From NCBI GenBank assembly GCA_947648875.1, contig CANSPM010000006.1:1-64000 (forward strand): DNA of 64,000 nt, in the 5' to 3' direction. This document shows positions 1-10,010 of this stretch, in pieces (the stretch's first letter is position 1; each line of letters begins with the position of its first letter). The stretch comes from an uncultured Lachnospiraceae bacterium (GTDB taxonomy: Bacteria > Bacillota > Clostridia > Lachnospirales > Lachnospiraceae). The position numbers and the translations under genes are program-made. The notes below the pieces were generated by a model, which made no database searches, was not told the origin of the DNA, and saw only the letters and a list, made by a program, of their open reading frames with translations.

Positions 1-55
1 AGTAGAAGGACAGGGAATGGGCTTTTGGACACGGGTTCGACTCCCGTCTACTCCA
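1..55 (+). ncRNA. ssrA: 3' end of probable tmRNA (truncated by window edge)
   Basis: GGAC followed by T-arm ACGGG-TTCGACT-CCCGT and acceptor strand CTACTCC-A; no anticodon arm precedes it, as expected for a tmRNA 3' end. Confidence 0.65.
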
Positions 56-651: not shown

Positions 652-2970
652 ATGAAAAAGAAATTGTTGACATTGCTGCTGACAGCTACCATGACGGTTT
701 CCATGGCTGCCTGTGGCAATAATAACAATGAAAACCAAGGTAGCTCGACACCCGGTACTGAAAGCCAGACCCCCAGTACCGAAAGCCAGGCCTCCGGCAA
801 TGAGAGCCAGACCCCCAGCTCTGACAGCGGCAGCAATGAGAACGCGCCGATCGAGGATACCACATCGCTTATGGCTGATCTGAATAAGCAGGCGGATGTG
901 GATGTGGCTGCTCACGACGAAAAGTCCGAAGAGATCTACAACACTGTCTTCGGCGAGTTTCAGACTGCCTATGATGAGGCGCTGGCCGAGACCAACGTGA
1001 GCATGCGTCTGGCCAAGATGGCTATCGCGGAGGCAAAGCTCCTGGAGGCCGGGGCCGTTACGCCTTATGCGAATGATGCCGGCAACTATGCCATCAGCGC
1101 CATTGTGCCGCACACGATTCCCGCTGTCGAGTGGGGATTTGATGGCGAGACCCGCGGCTTCAGCAATCTGCTGATTGCCGATCGCCTGCTGACTCCGGAG
1201 GAGCGCACGGAACTCACAACCAAGTGGAGCGAACTGGTAGGAACCGGTACATGGGAGGAATATGCCGTGCAGTGGGCCGCGGACAACGGCATCACTTTGG
1301 CGGACAGCTATACCCTGGGTTCCGATACCAATGACGAGCCTACCACCTGGGATTATCTGTCTTCTTCCAAGACTGCTGACGGCCAGACCCTTTCCGCTAC
1401 CTGGGACGGTCTGCTGCGCTATGACTCCGAGAACATCCAGCAGCCTGCTCTTGCCGAGAGCTATGAGATCTCAGACGATAACCTGACATACACCTTCCAT
1501 CTGCGCAAGGGAGTGAAGTGGGTTACTTATCAGGGCACGGAAGTGGCTGAACTGAAAGCCGACGATTTTGTGGCGGCCATGCAGCACATCGGCGATACTC
1601 CGTCAGGCGGCCTGTATGCCGTGGTTTCCTGTATTGAGAATCTGGCGGCCTATGCCACAGGCGAGATTACCGATTTCTCCGAGGTTGGCGTCAAGGCCCT
1701 TGATGACTATACTGTTCAGTACACATTGAGCGAGCCTACTCCGTGGTTTTTATCTGTAGTCGGATATTCCGCGATGGCTCCTCTGTGCCGCAGTTACTAT
1801 GAGTCTCAGGGAGGAAAATTCGGCGAGGAGTTTGATCCCACAGCCGCCGATTATACTTTCGGCTCCGACGCGCAGCACATCGTTTACTGTGGGCCTTATC
1901 TGGTGAGCAACTATACTTATCAGAATACCATCGTGCTTACGGCAAACCCCAGCTATTACAATGCGGATAAGGTCCGCATCAAGACCGTTACCTTTAAGTT
2001 CAATGACGGAACGGATGAGCTGTTCTCCTGGAACAATTATATGAACGGCACTTTCAACGCCGGTCTGGGACTGGGCGCCTCTGCGCTGGAGCAGGCCAAG
2101 GCTACTGCCGTACCCGATGATCCTGACGGCAAGAACTACTTTGAAAAGTATGCATACGTTGTCTCCGAAAGTGCGATCTCTTACCTGAATTTTGTAAACC
2201 TGAACCGTTACGCTTACGCCAACTACAATGACGAAACCCAGGTAAAGTCCGCAAAGACACAGCTGCAGGCTGAACGCAGCCAGGCCGCCATGATGAATCA
2301 GAATTTCCGTCTGGCGGTGGCGCTGGCCAATGACCGCGGCACGGTGAACGCTCTCAGCAGGGGTGAGGATCTGAGATATGCCCGTCTGACCAATTCCTAT
2401 GTGCCGGGCAGTTTCATCAGCGTCTCCGAGGAGATTACGGTTGACATTAACGGCACTGCCACCACCTATCCCGTTGGCACCTATTACGGGGAGATCCTGC
2501 AGGATCAGATTACGGCCGACGGCTATCCCATGCAGGTCTGGGATCCCAGCGGTGCTGACGGTGCGGGCTCCAGCCTTGGATTTGACGGCTGGTATCTGCC
2601 TGAGGAGGCTGTAAAATATCTGGAGAAGGCGATTGAAGAGCTTGCCGCGGAGGGCGTTGAGATCAGCGAGACCAACCCTATTTATCTGGATATGCTTTAT
2701 CAGGACTACAGCACCATCGGTTCTGCCATGAATCAGGCTCAGAAGAAGACCATTGAGGAGATTCTTGGCGGTAAGGTAGTTATCAATCTGGTTCCCTGCG
2801 TATCTGATGACAACAGGTCCTATGCCGGATATTACGGAGAGTATGGGTATCAGATGAACTATGATTACGGCGGAAGTACCGGTTGGGGTCCCGATTACGG
2901 TGATGCCCAGACCTATCTGGATACTCTGATGTCTGGTGGTTATATGTGCTTTGCCATGGGACTTTGGTAA
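652..2970 (+). CDS. ABC transporter substrate-binding lipoprotein, peptide/nickel family 5 (SBP_bac_5-like), apparently circularly permuted
   Basis: Lipobox ..MAACG; NALAESYEIS..LTYTFHLRKGVKW core; GGAGG RBS; followed by Opp permease and ATPase genes. Confidence 0.9.
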   Translation: MKKKLLTLLLTATMTVSMAACGNNNNENQGSSTPGTESQTPSTESQASGNESQTPSSDSGSNENAPIEDTTSLMADLNKQADVDVAAHDEKSEEIYNTVFGEFQTAYDEALAETNVSMRLAKMAIAEAKLLEAGAVTPYANDAGNYAISAIVPHTIPAVEWGFDGETRGFSNLLIADRLLTPEERTELTTKWSELVGTGTWEEYAVQWAADNGITLADSYTLGSDTNDEPTTWDYLSSSKTADGQTLSATWDGLLRYDSENIQQPALAESYEISDDNLTYTFHLRKGVKWVTYQGTEVAELKADDFVAAMQHIGDTPSGGLYAVVSCIENLAAYATGEITDFSEVGVKALDDYTVQYTLSEPTPWFLSVVGYSAMAPLCRSYYESQGGKFGEEFDPTAADYTFGSDAQHIVYCGPYLVSNYTYQNTIVLTANPSYYNADKVRIKTVTFKFNDGTDELFSWNNYMNGTFNAGLGLGASALEQAKATAVPDDPDGKNYFEKYAYVVSESAISYLNFVNLNRYAYANYNDETQVKSAKTQLQAERSQAAMMNQNFRLAVALANDRGTVNALSRGEDLRYARLTNSYVPGSFISVSEEITVDINGTATTYPVGTYYGEILQDQITADGYPMQVWDPSGADGAGSSLGFDGWYLPEEAVKYLEKAIEELAAEGVEISETNPIYLDMLYQDYSTIGSAMNQAQKKTIEEILGGKVVINLVPCVSDDNRSYAGYYGEYGYQMNYDYGGSTGWGPDYGDAQTYLDTLMSGGYMCFAMGLW

Positions 2971-3093: not shown

Positions 3094-4674
3094 ATGGGAA
3101 GATATGTGTTAAAGAGATTGCTGCATGGAATCGTATCCATCATTCTGGTGGTTTTTATTGTCATGCTGCTGGTTTACGGACTGATGAACCGTGACCTTGT
3201 GTTTGCCAAGGATGCAAACTTTGGCAAACAGACCAACAATAACAGACGTACTTATATGCTTCAGCAGTGGGAACTGTTCGGTTATTACGACTATGTCCCC
3301 TACGCTGATTATATGTTGATGCTTCGGCAGGAGGGAGAGATTGATGAGGAGACCCGGGCCGAGGCAGTAAAGCTTGGACGTGACGCGGACGGAAGCAAGG
3401 ATTCCGAACTCGCGGCACAGTATATCGAACAATTTACAGAATATTATGAGTCGAAAGGCTATACGGTGGAGCGTCTGGGCGCTGTGCTGTCCAGAGGCAA
3501 AATTGCCCCCGGCGGTCAGCCCGCGCTGTTTGCCTATAAGGATAATTCCCTGCTGGAACGGCTCTGGACATATTTTACCGGCCTCATTCAGGTGGACAAC
3601 ATTCATTATGTGCCGGAATGCAATGACATCGGAGAGAGAGGTCTCACTTTTACGCTCTATGATCCGTTGTATGGCGGCGATAAGTTTTCTCCCGCGATTA
3701 TGGGCAACGGGACCAAACATAAGTATCTTCTTTATTTTGACAACAGATTTCCCTATATCCATCAGAACCTGGCTACCGTCAATCTGGGCGTCAGTTTTTC
3801 CATCAGCCGGGGGGTGGATGTATTCACTACCATGACGCAGAGCCAGGGTTCCTGGGTGCAGTCCGCAATCACCTATCCCACAGGATTAAGTGAGATGAGC
3901 GCCGATGATCTGCACACGGCTACCTATATCGCTGGGTCCAGGGATACCAGTGAGATGCTCCAGGCCCGTTTTACGGATGATTATACCAGTGTTATGACGG
4001 TGAGAGGCAGTTATTCCCGCTTGGGCTATTCGTTCCTGATCGGTATCATTGCCTCCATAGTGACTTACGTTTTGGGACTGCCCATTGGCGTGTTGATGGC
4101 GCGTTTCAAGGAGGGGCTTTTTGACAAGATTGGCACGGTGTATATCATGTTTATCTCCGCTGTCCCGTCCCTGGCCTATATTTTCCTGTTCCGGGGCATT
4201 GGCAGCGCCATGGGGCTGCCGACGATGTTCGACATGGATAACGTGAAAAAGGCCATGTATTTGTTGCCCATTGTTTCGCTTGCGCTTCCCTCGGTGGCCA
4301 GTATGATGAAATGGATGCGTCGGTACATGATTGATCAGATGAATTCCGACTATGTGAAATTCGCCAGATCCGGCGGTATGTCGGAGACGGAGATCTTTTT
4401 CAAGCATGTGATGAAGGTTGCCGCTATTCCCATTGTGCAGGGCATTCCCGGCACACTCCTGTTTGCCATGACGGGAGCGCTCATCACGGAACGTGTCTAT
4501 CTGGTTCCCGGTGCGGGCGGGCTGCTCATTGATGCCATCAATCAGTATGACAACTCGGTAATTGTAGGCGTGACGTTGTTTTACGCGGTCCTGTCGGTTT
4601 TGGCGCTGATTCTGGGCGATGTGATGATGGCCATGGTGGACCCCAGAATTTCCTTTACGAATAAAGCGAGGTGA
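3094..4674 (+). CDS. Oligopeptide ABC transporter permease, OppB/DppB-like, with large insertion after TM1
   Basis: N-terminal RYVLKRLLHGI TM1; C-terminal permease core with FARSGGMSETEIFFKHVMKVAAIPI; 526 aa, well above the usual ~310. Confidence 0.9.
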   Translation: MGRYVLKRLLHGIVSIILVVFIVMLLVYGLMNRDLVFAKDANFGKQTNNNRRTYMLQQWELFGYYDYVPYADYMLMLRQEGEIDEETRAEAVKLGRDADGSKDSELAAQYIEQFTEYYESKGYTVERLGAVLSRGKIAPGGQPALFAYKDNSLLERLWTYFTGLIQVDNIHYVPECNDIGERGLTFTLYDPLYGGDKFSPAIMGNGTKHKYLLYFDNRFPYIHQNLATVNLGVSFSISRGVDVFTTMTQSQGSWVQSAITYPTGLSEMSADDLHTATYIAGSRDTSEMLQARFTDDYTSVMTVRGSYSRLGYSFLIGIIASIVTYVLGLPIGVLMARFKEGLFDKIGTVYIMFISAVPSLAYIFLFRGIGSAMGLPTMFDMDNVKKAMYLLPIVSLALPSVASMMKWMRRYMIDQMNSDYVKFARSGGMSETEIFFKHVMKVAAIPIVQGIPGTLLFAMTGALITERVYLVPGAGGLLIDAINQYDNSVIVGVTLFYAVLSVLALILGDVMMAMVDPRISFTNKAR

Positions 4675-5660
4675 GAGGCGTGGAAGATTTCAGTAAAAAG
4701 TATAATATGCCGGACGCGGAGCTTTTTGCTCCTGTCAATCATGATGATCTTGCTTCCGAGAAGATCACCGCGCCCAGGTATTCCTATTGGAAATCCGTAT
4801 TCCGCGTGTTCTTCCGGAATCGGGTCAATATTGTCGTTCTTTCGCTGCTGGCTGTTTTGGTTGTGTTCGCGTTTATCTATCCCGTTATCATCGGCTATGA
4901 TCCTGAGGTGAATCCTTACATGAATCTGACCGATATGGCCGCGCAGCATCTGAATCCCAAGAAAGCCATCGAACATTTTGGATTCAGTATCAAGTGGATT
5001 TTCGGTACCAGCGGGCAGGGGGCGTCTACTTTTGACTCCATCTGGCATGGTTCGCGCCTGTCCATCATGCTGGCTGTGGTCTGTGCCGCCATCAACATGA
5101 CTATTGGCATTATTCTGGGCGCTGTCTGGGGCTTTTCCCGGAAAGTGGATATTGTCATGAACGAGGTATACAATGTGCTGGGCAATATTCCCATGACCCT
5201 GCTGATCTCCGTTATGGTGCTGGTTTTCTCTCCCAGTTTCTGGACGCTGGTCTTTGCCATGACGGTAATCGGATGGCTGGGCATGGCCTACTATATACGT
5301 ACGCGGGTTATTATTATTCGAGATCATGAGTATAACCTGGCGTCGAGATGCCTGGGTACCAATATTTTTAAGATTGCCACCAAGAACATTTTGCCGTTTA
5401 TGACTTCTGTCATTGTGCTGGAGATTGCCAGCGCCATTCCGGGTTATATATCCTATGAGGTGTTCCTGAGCTATATTGGACTGGGTATCAACGAGGCAAC
5501 CCTGGGCCGTCTGATTCAGGAGGCTCAGAACGCCATGTCAACACCCGGCTGGGGGTGGGAGTTCTGGTCTCCTGTGGCGGTAGCGTCTGTCATCACCGTG
5601 GTTCTGTATGTCGTCGGTCAGAATCTGGGCGACGCGTCTGACCCCAGAACGCATATGTAA
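4671..5660 (+). CDS. Oligopeptide ABC transporter permease, OppC/DppC-like
   Basis: GTG start overlapping upstream stop; EAA-loop region SRCLGTNIFKIATKNILPFM; hydrophobic segments. Confidence 0.9.
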   Translation: MRGVEDFSKKYNMPDAELFAPVNHDDLASEKITAPRYSYWKSVFRVFFRNRVNIVVLSLLAVLVVFAFIYPVIIGYDPEVNPYMNLTDMAAQHLNPKKAIEHFGFSIKWIFGTSGQGASTFDSIWHGSRLSIMLAVVCAAINMTIGIILGAVWGFSRKVDIVMNEVYNVLGNIPMTLLISVMVLVFSPSFWTLVFAMTVIGWLGMAYYIRTRVIIIRDHEYNLASRCLGTNIFKIATKNILPFMTSVIVLEIASAIPGYISYEVFLSYIGLGINEATLGRLIQEAQNAMSTPGWGWEFWSPVAVASVITVVLYVVGQNLGDASDPRTHM

Positions 5661-5673
5661 GGAGGACACAGCA

Positions 5674-7431
5674 ATGGAAGACAAGAAAGTACTGCTCTCT
5701 GTTCGCGATCTCCATGTTAAGTTCCGTGTCCGCGGCAGAGTGTTGACCGCAATCCGCGGTATTGACCTCGATATTTATGAAAATGAATCTATCGCCATTG
5801 TAGGTGAGTCAGGCTCCGGCAAGTCCGTCTTTACCAAAACTTTTGCGGGAATGCTGGATTCCAACGGATTTATCTCTGAAGGGCGTCTCATATTTTCCGA
5901 TGACGAACTGGCCGATACCCATGTCCGCATCGGCTCTGTGGCACAGAATTTCATCAGACATGCAAGGGCCAGGCTGGACGAGTATTCCAGATACGAGTTC
6001 GGAGCCGGGACCTGGCAGGCCATGGAAAAGCTGAAAACTGAGCGGGAGGAACGCATGGGACTTTCCCACCAGGAGCAGGAGGCCGCTGACAAGGCGCTGA
6101 AAAGTCTTGTGGATGAGCGAATCAGTGTCTTTAATCTGAAACAGACTCTGGATTCCAGAAATCAGAAGCAGGAGATCCGGGAAGCCACCGCAAAAATGAA
6201 GGAATACGACCGGAAGATCAAGGAGCTTAAAGCGGCTAACGCCCAGAAAGCCAGAGCCCATAAGGCCGCCGCTTCCAGCGACACGGCTTATCAGAGTGAA
6301 TATGAGAAGGAAATGGCCAAGCTCAAAACCCGCTACGCGAAAGAGATCACGGGCGCGCCTGATAAAAAGACGCTGGAGCGCAATGAGATTCTTGCGAAGG
6401 AGATCTATCTTTCTATTGGCCGCTACGGCTTCAGCAAGCGCCTGCAATTGATGAACGGTCTTCTGAAAGCCTTTAAGAAAGCAATGATAATGGGTGTGGA
6501 TCTGGATGACGAGGCGCAGAGAAACAAGGTGTTTGACACTGTGGCTTTTCGTGTGAAATACCTGGATGAAACACCGCGGGAGCTTCATGGTACCTGCATT
6601 TTGAATCTTGCCAATGTGAAATTTGCCGGCGACTGGAACCAGATTCGCGGACGGCGTATCGCTACGGTGTTCCAGGACCCCATGACCAGCTTAAATCCCA
6701 TTGTTACCATCGGGAAACAGATTACCTCCGTTATTGTGCGCCATCAGGGCTGTTCGGAGGCGGAGGCCAGACGCCGTGCCATCGAACTCATGCACAAGGT
6801 GGGGATTCCCAAGGCGGAGAGCAGATTTGACGATTATCCGTTCCAGTATTCCGGCGGTATGCGGCAGCGGATCGTTATTGCCATTGCCCTTTCCTGTCAG
6901 CCGAAAATTCTGATCTGTGACGAGCCTACTACGGCTCTGGATGTGACCATACAGGCGCAGATCCTGAAGCTCATCAAGGATTTGCAGAGAGAGTTCGGGT
7001 ATACCATTGTATTTATTACCCATGATTTGGGTGTTGTAGCCAATATTGCGGACCGTGTGGCGGTGCTGTATGCCGGGCAGGTGATCGAACTGGGCAATGT
7101 GGATGAGGTTTTCTATGATCCGCGTCATCCCTACACCTGGGCATTGCTTTCCAGCCTTCCACAGCTTGCGCAGAGCGGCAGCAAGCTCTATTCCATTACC
7201 GGTACGCCGCCGTCTCTCTACAACAGCATTACCGGGGATGCCTTTGCGCCCCGTAATCCGTTCTGCCTGAAAATTGATACGCTGGAAGAACCGCCGATGT
7301 TTCAGATAACGGACACCCATTATGCGAAGACCTGGCTGCTTGATCCAAGAGCGCCGAAGATTGATAAACCTGAAAGCATTCAGGATATTCACGAGAAGAT
7401 TCTGGACGCTTACAACGTGGAAGAAGTATGA
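5674..7431 (+). CDS. Oligopeptide ABC transporter ATPase, OppD-like, with ~200-aa insertion
   Basis: GESGSGKS Walker [19 protein letters not shown] signature; [12 protein letters not shown] Walker B; start ATG 5674 with GGAGG RBS. Confidence 0.92.
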
Positions 7432-7448
7432 GAGAGGAGGCGAACAGG

Positions 7449-8744
7449 TTGAGTAAGATGACGAAAAAAAGCCTCCTTGGCGATTGTCCGGTGGATGCAG
7501 AGGGCAGAGAGATTCTGCTGAGTCTGAAAAATGTGGACATTACTTTCGGTAAGGGTGAAAATGCCGTCCGTGCTGTCACTGATGCGTCCTTTGACATTTA
7601 CAGGGGGGAAACTTTCTCACTGGTAGGGGAATCCGGTTCCGGAAAAACCACCATTGGCCGGGCAGTGATCAGAGTCAATCCGCTGGCCGCCGGTGAGATA
7701 GATTACCGGGGAGTGAGGATTTCCGGTAAAATTCCCCATGCGTTGGACAGGGAAGTGATCAGGAACATCCAGATGGTGTTTCAGGACCCGGCCGCGTCCT
7801 TAAACGAGAGGGCCACGGTTGACTATATTATCTCCGAGGGGCTCTATAATTTCCATCTGTTTGAGAATGAAGCCGACAGAGTCCGTAAAGTGGAGAAGAT
7901 GATTGCAGAGGTCGGTCTGCTGCCCGAGCATCTGACCCGTTATCCGCATGAGTTTTCAGGCGGGCAAAGACAGCGGATCGGCATTGCCCGCGCGATGGTT
8001 ATGGAGCCTGAACTGGTGGTGGCAGATGAGCCTATTTCCGCCCTGGATGTGTCTATCCGCGCCCAGGTGCTGAATCTGATGAAGAAATTTCAGCAGGAAA
8101 AGCATCTGACTTATCTGTTTATCGCGCATGATTTGTCCGTGGTACGCTTTATTTCCGACAGAATCGGAGTGATTTACAAGGGACGGATCGTTGAAATAGC
8201 CTCCGCGGAGGAGCTTTTCAATTTCCCGCTCCATCCGTATACGCATTCGCTGATCTCCGCGATTCCTATTCCGGACCCGCAGCTTGAGAAGAATAAGGTG
8301 CTGTATACTTATGATCCTTCTATTCATGATTATTCCGTGGATAAGCCGGAGTTTGTGGATATCGGACATGATCACTGGGTTTATGGCAATAAGGAGGAGA
8401 TTGAAAAATACAGGACTTTGCGGGAAAAGAATGAGCCGGTGAGGGCTATCACCATTACTTTCGATCCGGAGAAGCTAAAGGCTTCCGCGGAGGAGAAAGA
8501 GGCGCAGGACGCGGCTGCGGAAACGCAGTTTCTGGAGGCTCCGGTGCATGATACCGGCAACAGATTGTATGCCATAGCATCCTTTTTCCTGCCAATTTTA
8601 GGGTTGATCGTAGGCTTTGTTTTCAGACATTTTCATTATATACGCAACTATAAAATGTGCAAAAAGGGTGCTGTTGCGGGATTGCTTGTGCTGGGTGTCA
8701 TTGTGCTTATTTTCCTGTTGCTGCTTCTGCTGGCGGTTATTTAG
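7449..8744 (+). CDS. Oligopeptide ABC transporter ATPase, OppF-like, with C-terminal membrane domain
   Basis: [29 protein letters not shown]; hydrophobic C-terminus; likely TTG start 7449 after AGAGAGGAGG (ORF track starts at 7428). Confidence 0.9.
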
Positions 8745-10010
8745 ATGAGGGGGACACGAAGGGGAGGCAGCCCACATATCCCGAAAACTTTCAAGATCGA
8801 GATCTCGGACAGACATGTAAAAGCCCGGATTATTGCGGCAGTCATTTTTCTTGTGATAAGCGCGGTTTCTCTGGGCTATGGGGTCAGCGTACTGACTGGA
8901 ACGGACAAGGGCTGGCAGTTTATTTCCTTCTCCGGCGATGGCGCGGAATATGCGGCTTCGTTTGCACTGACCTATGAGCTGGGTGTGACGGACAAATCGG
9001 CCAGAAACGAGAACAGAGAGATCCGGCGGATATATTCCGAGGCGTGTCTGAAAGCAGGAAGGGCTTTCGATGCCTATGTGGTAAGTCCGGGCAATATACG
9101 GGCTCTGAACGAAGCCCCCAATGAAGTGATGGTGCTGGATTCGGTGCTGTATGATGCGCTGGCTCTTCTGGAGCAATATGAGAACAGGACGGTGTATCTG
9201 GGGCCTGCTTTCCGATTTTACGAGAATGTATTTTCCTGTACGGAGGACTGGCAGTTGGAGGATTTTGACCCGGAATCCAACGAAGAGCTTGGAGCGCTGT
9301 TTGATCGGATTGCCGCTTATGCGCGTGATCCGGACAGCGTAAGGGTAGAGCTCCTGGGGGAGAACAGGGCGAGGCTGCATGTGTCGGAAGAATATCAGGC
9401 CTTTCTTGCGTATGAGGAACTGGGCGGGGCGTTGGATTTCGGCTGGATGAAAAATGCTTTTATTACGGATTATATTGCGGATTCACTCACCAGCGCCGGT
9501 TACACCCGGGGGAGTGTAGCAAGCTACGACGGCTATACCAGAAATATGGATGACGGCAGCGGCACAATGTACAGTCTGAATATTTTTGACTGCATGGACG
9601 GCGCGGCGGCCGTGGTGGCGCGTCTCGATTATCAGGGCGCTATGACCTTTGTCTCCTATCGGGATTTCCCGATCAGCGCCATGGATTCTCAGCGCATATA
9701 TGTGACTGCGGACGGAGAACGGAAGACCCTGTTTCTGTCTTTGGAGGACGGACTGCCCTGCGCAGCCGCGGACAGTTTGACGGTGTATTCCGATACGCTG
9801 GGCTGCGCGGAGACCATGCTTTTATCCATGCCGGTTTTTCAACAGGAGAAGATTTCCGTCGATGATCTGACATACCTCACAGATTGCGGAGGGCTGGCCG
9901 TTTTGGCCGGAGACAGAAAACTTTTTGTCACGGATAGCAAGGTTGTACTCAACAGTCTGTACGACGGGTATGAGGTAGAATATACAGGATCAGGGACCGT
10001 GACGGAATGA
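8745..10010 (+). CDS. Membrane-anchored protein with putative degenerate ApbE-like domain
   Basis: Single N-terminal TM (RIIAAVIFLVISAVSLGYGVSVL); ALDFGWMKNAFITDYIADSLTSAGYTRGSVASYDGYTRN resembles the ApbE core segment; starts immediately after oppF-like stop. Confidence 0.5.
   Translation: MRGTRRGGSPHIPKTFKIEISDRHVKARIIAAVIFLVISAVSLGYGVSVLTGTDKGWQFISFSGDGAEYAASFALTYELGVTDKSARNENREIRRIYSEACLKAGRAFDAYVVSPGNIRALNEAPNEVMVLDSVLYDALALLEQYENRTVYLGPAFRFYENVFSCTEDWQLEDFDPESNEELGALFDRIAAYARDPDSVRVELLGENRARLHVSEEYQAFLAYEELGGALDFGWMKNAFITDYIADSLTSAGYTRGSVASYDGYTRNMDDGSGTMYSLNIFDCMDGAAAVVARLDYQGAMTFVSYRDFPISAMDSQRIYVTADGERKTLFLSLEDGLPCAAADSLTVYSDTLGCAETMLLSMPVFQQEKISVDDLTYLTDCGGLAVLAGDRKLFVTDSKVVLNSLYDGYEVEYTGSGTVTE

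Follow-up and report, generated by a model that had tools for sequence, protein, structure and literature searches.

The gene at positions 652–2970 on the forward strand of the window (the whole stretch of 64,000 nucleotides analyzed here, from an uncultured member of the Lachnospiraceae) encodes a lipoprotein of 772 aa, which, judged by its sequence, is a permuted variant of the family-5 substrate-binding proteins (SBPs; SBP_bac_5) and not an ordinary member. Taken as a whole, it is read with high confidence as a natural circular permutant among the lipid-anchored oligopeptide-binding proteins (AmiA/Ali-like; SBP_bac_5, cluster C), serving the oppBCDF importer whose genes lie directly downstream. 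Oligopeptide-binding proteins are, to our knowledge, among the best studied components of transporters, with dozens of structures, all of which have been assumed to follow one chain order.

Chain layout and evidence for the rotated order

The open reading frame begins with a signal peptide and lipobox (residues 1–21; 652–714), which ends in ..SMAAC21 with a putatively lipidated Cys21; K2, L10, A20 and C21 are invariant among 14 relatives. A low-complexity tether rich in Ser, Thr and Asn (residues 22–89, ~65 residues; 715–918) leads to the moved C-terminal block (residues ~90–196; 919–1239), homologous to AliC 517–614 and AmiA 518–619 and including the motif WGFD (residues 161–164; 1132–1143). 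In the new junction (residues ~197–216; 1240–1299), placed by alignments and the AF2 model, the old C-terminus, the end of an alpha19-like helix, meets the old mature N-terminus; in the model, helices extend up to residue ~211 and the first core strand lies at ~219. The core (residues 214–772; 1291–2967), which by homology makes up the N-terminal lobe of canonical proteins and the larger part of lobe 2, carries GWGPDYGD (residues 744–751; 2881–2904) and terminates in GGYMCFAMGLW (2935–2967), an end point common to the permuted clade, whose complete members all reach their C-terminus 29–31 aa past the GWxxDYxDx motif (26/26). All these features lie on the forward strand.

In the view of Pfam the protein is ordinary and seemingly complete, with a PF00496 match of 137.1 bits (gathering score 32.4) at residues 264–763, covering profile positions 3–364 of 368. 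Since PF00496 ends at about the point where the block was excised, the domain annotation hides the rearrangement and such proteins look normal, so that the case exposes a blind spot in domain annotation. The source genome holds only three genes matching PF00496, and this is the sole AmiA-like one.

The first-pass annotation of this DNA had proposed that a segment resembling the C-terminus of family-5 proteins stands at the N-terminus, and three comparisons agree with it. By phmmer against the PDB, AliC was the best sequence match (E 4.6e-68), and its chain (8qlh) was covered in rotated order, query residues 229–759 aligning to 21–493 and residues 97–193 to 517–614; AmiA, AliB and AliD likewise gave two rotated stretches, the second of which is weak on its own. 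A profile of the block only, built from 14 relatives, had four matches in the whole PDB, all of them C-termini, namely those of AmiA, AliC, AliB and AliD (E 5.9e-8 to 2.5e-5), which excludes chance. By hhalign, the block matched the C-terminal ends of canonical Lachnospiraceae AmiA-like proteins over 93 columns with 97% probability (E 1.1e-10). The block, located earlier at residues ~91–180, shows homology over ~95–193; a canonical start near nt 1324 (residue 225) agrees with core homology from about residue 212–229. As was also noticed at first, the protein ends early, with the stop codon 13 residues past GWGPDYGDAQTYLDTL and without the closing region at the core's own C-terminus. It does not show the canonical order, in which the closing block follows the GWxxDYxDP motif; here the block precedes the core.

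Relocation of the block from the C- to the N-terminus was examined with a profile of the canonical C-terminal region (248 positions), for which the block was re-joined in silico behind the tail and compared with 20 shuffled blocks. The rotated order scored above all 20 shuffles in each of 26 proteins, on average 33 bits above the best shuffle, and tail and block together gave one continuous hit over ~25–243 of the 248 positions. On this profile the permuted tails stop at 126–135 and the blocks begin at 130–154; they abut, which indicates a clean cut at which little sequence was lost or doubled. With a canonical profile of the whole length, the native and the rotated order could not be told apart, as an insert splits the alignment.

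Conservation, operon context and predicted peptide pocket

Block-before-core order was found in 28 proteins (hmmsearch, all loci), whereas canonical AmiA-like proteins show the block after the core. When 396 sampled genomes of the family were searched with a junction-spanning profile, scores were bimodal: 14 hits at 319–567 bits spanned the junction and the remaining ones, at <=159 bits, were without the block. Within the genus, 8 of 60 further species have a full-length collinear relative (in one of the eight, G001, the gene is divided between two contigs), and such relatives are also present in named metagenome-assembled genomes of Eisenbergiella, Lachnospiraceae and others. Among 288 sampled genomes of the class, five possess the permuted order, one of them outside the family. 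For the closest four relatives dN/dS amounts to about 0.1 in the block and 0.06–0.09 in the core, and both are under purifying selection.

That the architecture stems from misjoined tandem SBP genes, as an artefact of assembly or annotation, might be considered, as tandem canonical SBP genes do occur in relatives and could be misassembled. However, one conserved cut point, the purifying selection and the recovery of the same junction in independent assemblies of many species at 37–91% identity speak against it; with the order conserved in 28 proteins this reading was rejected and its likelihood is regarded as negligible.

In every examined permuted locus with downstream sequence, oppB follows, with oppCDF behind it for as long as the contig continues. 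In the window these genes, all on the forward strand, encode an OppB/AmiC-like permease of 526 aa (3094–4674) in which a long N-terminal region separates the first transmembrane segment from the permease domain, an OppC/AmiD-like permease (4671–5660), an OppD-like ATPase of 607 aa (5608–7431; the true start is probably near 5674) with an insert of ~230 aa, and an OppF-like ATPase (7428–8744) with a hydrophobic C-terminal extension. The OppD insert sits between Walker A and Q-loop; the OppF extension resembles two transmembrane segments, which is unusual in a cytosolic ATPase. OppD matched the Mollicutes OppD model NF043079 from end to end, insert included, with 716 bits (cut-off 740; 756 bits in genome G303), and full-length matches to this model were obtained in only two genomes among 398 sampled of the phylum, both of which carry the permuted SBP. 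The best match of OppC was likewise a Mollicutes Opp model.

Two further observations concern the surroundings. Directly after oppF, a protein of 421 aa (8745–10010) had no Pfam or NCBIfam match; it is found in the same place in three relatives (L034, L036 and L038) at 35–75% identity. At the start of the contig a perfect 17-bp direct repeat, GACTCCCGTCTACTCCA, occupies window positions 39–55 and 96–112; it resembles the 3' end of a tmRNA gene and is possibly an integration-site remnant, and ARAGORN called no complete gene at the repeat.

The AF2 model of residues 76–772 shows one compact SBP fold (mean pLDDT 93.6, pTM 0.91). It was computed from 85 rows, comprising permuted proteins together with core-only and block-only rows from canonical relatives, and may therefore lean on AF2's memory of the fold; a shallow input of the 14 permuted sequences only yielded pLDDT 54, was unusable, and its Foldseek hits were disregarded. 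A pTM of 0.91 would be hard to reach with the N-terminal 19% of the chain floating free, and an intact three-domain, two-lobe fold with the block docked back is predicted. With this model, Foldseek placed AliB, AliD and AmiA near the top (TM 0.66–0.72 to target); as it aligns sequentially, the block is unusable in the match, which covers the core. The domain-swapped AliC crystal structure ranked first by E-value with poor superposition, as expected for a swapped chain. Helices at residues ~182–211 of the model are now internal, and homology runs into helix alpha19 (in AmiA to 619).

A different reading of the same architecture is three-dimensional domain swapping, in which the block completes the fold of a neighbouring molecule and the functional form would be an intertwined dimer or a chain instead of a monomer. 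AliC, the closest solved relative, is indeed a domain-swapped dimer in the crystal and dimeric in solution (PMC11192437), and an exchange of the flexible N-terminal block from one molecule to another is conceivable. Yet the swap in AliC involves whole lobes rather than the C-terminal block, with no functional role shown there (PMC11192437), and the AF2 monomer closes at the high pTM given above, so that swapping is considered unlikely and docking of the block within its own chain is preferred.

In AliD, D501 and W498 hold the N-terminus of the peptide, and I603, close to the C-terminus of the protein, is among the residues of pocket P1 (PMC11192437). By phmmer alignments, with the numbering offset of +25 applied by hand, these residues correspond to D748, W745 and F163 of the 772-aa protein; W745 and D748 as well as W161, G162 and D164, which flank F163, are invariant in the clade. 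As the equivalent F163 sits in the moved block, the pocket needs this block, and the claim is directly testable by structure and binding. Conserved pocket residues and the conserved oppBCDF operon suggest that the protein binds oligopeptides, its most likely role being their capture for the downstream Ami/Opp-type importer.

These residues also bear on the idea that the block is an independent accessory domain from another SBP and that the shortened core functions with no C-terminal part of its own. In sequence the block does look like an extra domain before a Pfam-complete SBP_bac_5 region, but all complete members lack a block at the C-terminus, block and core abut on the canonical profile without overlap, a pocket residue lies in the block and the model is compact, all of which make an accessory domain very improbable. 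The block aligned nowhere but with the C-terminal region of family-5 proteins, and the core is not a complete canonical fold joined to an unrelated domain; the permutation proposed at first is thus supported.

Recurrence, origin and membrane anchoring

Two further permuted lineages were found. Type 3, a DppE/OppA-like SBP (L031:1087–2862, forward strand; also L115–L119, with synteny in L167–L169), occurs in five species of the genus of the window, located after oppBCDF. Its cut lies 29 aa past the GWxxDxxDP motif, in the same loop as that of the window protein (type 1); residues 138–586 match DppE 22–444 and residues 66–128 match DppE 451–513, and against a canonical sister (L121) residues 157–615 align to 39–511 and 80–154 to 530–605 at 57% identity. 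Type 2 (L014:1342–3012, reverse strand; L016:568–2295 and L165:11195–12937, both forward strand) was cut in a different loop of lobe 2, after FNINN, and residues 303–555 align to 29–279 and 65–299 to 309–541 of B. anthracis OppA (E 4e-61); in one genome (G073) type 2 is present twice, and behind each copy stands a separate set of opp genes. Like the window protein, both types are SBP_bac_5 lipoproteins that come with opp operons and show this kind of rearrangement, but they form separate clades among canonical OppA/DppE-like proteins.

In a tree of the shared core only, types 1, 2 and 3 are separate supported clades amid canonical lineages, and three changes are needed; the sister grouping of type 3 has moderate support (96/72). 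AU tests rejected joint clades of types 1 and 2 (p 0.0008), 1 and 3 (p 0.028) and 2 and 3 (p 0.032), the latter two values being only moderate evidence, since the groups were named after the data had been seen. A single event for types 1 and 3, as their shared cut site might suggest, was rejected, as canonical lineages stand between them on the tree in addition to the AU result. Three independent origins of permuted family-5 SBPs are supported, and the tree shows a single origin of the type 1 permutation. A conserved permuted clade, together with two additional origins within one bacterial order, provides a natural experiment on the influence of the membrane-tethering site on capture and delivery.

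According to the textbooks, circular permutants arise when a gene is duplicated in tandem and the outer parts of the pair are then lost. For the window protein, the ancestral SBP gene would have gone through these steps; the chain would have been joined where its ends used to be, with the C-terminal helix (alpha19-like) continuing into the former first strand, and opened anew at roughly AliD residues 525–534, in a loop on the surface of Domain III (lobe 2). The last ~100 residues now come after the signal peptide and the long, presumably flexible tether; they would dock onto the core, rebuilding lobe and peptide pocket, and the protein would capture peptides and pass them to OppBC in the usual way. 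Canonical amiA-like genes standing side by side in tandem were observed in two Lachnospiraceae genomes, at L073:4262–8129 (copies 50% identical) and L074:4582–8523 (broken frames), and such an arrangement is the starting point needed for permutation by duplication; among the relatives examined no duplication intermediate was found.

The median tether length is about 53 aa for the permuted clade and about 28 aa for canonical relatives, both with heuristic boundaries. Domain III (lobe 2) of AliD comprises residues 297–582 (PMC11192437); by alignment the type 1 cut falls near AliD 525–534, type 3 was cut in this loop as well, and type 2 close to where Domain III begins. As all three cuts lie in lobe 2, the N-terminal lipid anchor should be joined to lobe 2 instead of lobe 1 in all three types. 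The extracellular domains of AmiC have been modelled as clamping the binding protein, with ECD2 contacting lobe 1 only (PMC11192437). Tentatively, and with doubt prevailing, the repeated permutation (at least three times) in family-5 SBPs of Clostridia might be an adaptive re-orientation relative to membrane and permease rather than a neutral accident, in which case the geometry of the tether would be a tunable parameter of ABC importers.

Comparison with known systems

The Opp system of Mollicutes (NCBIfam NF043077/79/80, MMSYN1_0165–0169) is, by OppD, of the same transporter type as that of the window, but its OppA is canonical, with the core starting at profile position 49 and the C-block at 785–886 of 896, and was rejected as a permuted relative. 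The window SBP scored 114.5 bits with the OppA model NF043077, under the equivalog cut-off of 650 bits; direct genome searches for Mollicutes OppA gave no match, which is not evidence of absence. Because Mollicutes OppA is canonical although Mollicutes OppD is closest to the OppD of the window, the permutation arose, most simply, inside this transporter lineage after the split from Mollicutes Opp.

Circular permutation is already known from another SBP cluster, and CPSARST reported that binding proteins for glycine-betaine and for molybdate, as well as CysB, are related by permutation (PMC2395249). For family-5 SBPs no report was found in the open-access literature searched, the sole literature checked, in line with the impression of the first-pass annotation; the permuted family-5 SBPs are new as far as this literature shows. 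A precedent is TpMglB-2 (TP0684) of Treponema pallidum ('Cluster Bc'), a natural, functional, permuted and lipid-anchored SBP conserved in a bacterial group, for which a link to membrane anchoring was also suspected (PMC4990184). It differs in its cluster B sugar-binding fold, not seen in the 772-aa protein, whose matches are family-5 (cluster C) structures, and in that N-terminal strands moved to the C-terminus, and represents an unrelated family and a separate event.

Closest are the pneumococcal proteins AmiA, AliB, AliC and AliD (PDB 8a42, 8qlj, 8qlh, 8qlc; PMC11192437), the best sequence and fold matches to core and moved block. Shared with them are the Trp/Asp clamp for the peptide N-terminus and a C-terminal helix of the alpha19 kind and, with the Ami system, the pairing of the lipoprotein with an importer in which the AmiC-like permease carries a long region outside the cell. 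The pneumococcal proteins differ, however, in their canonical order, with the anchor on Domain I (lobe 1) and the last ~110 residues at the C-terminus.
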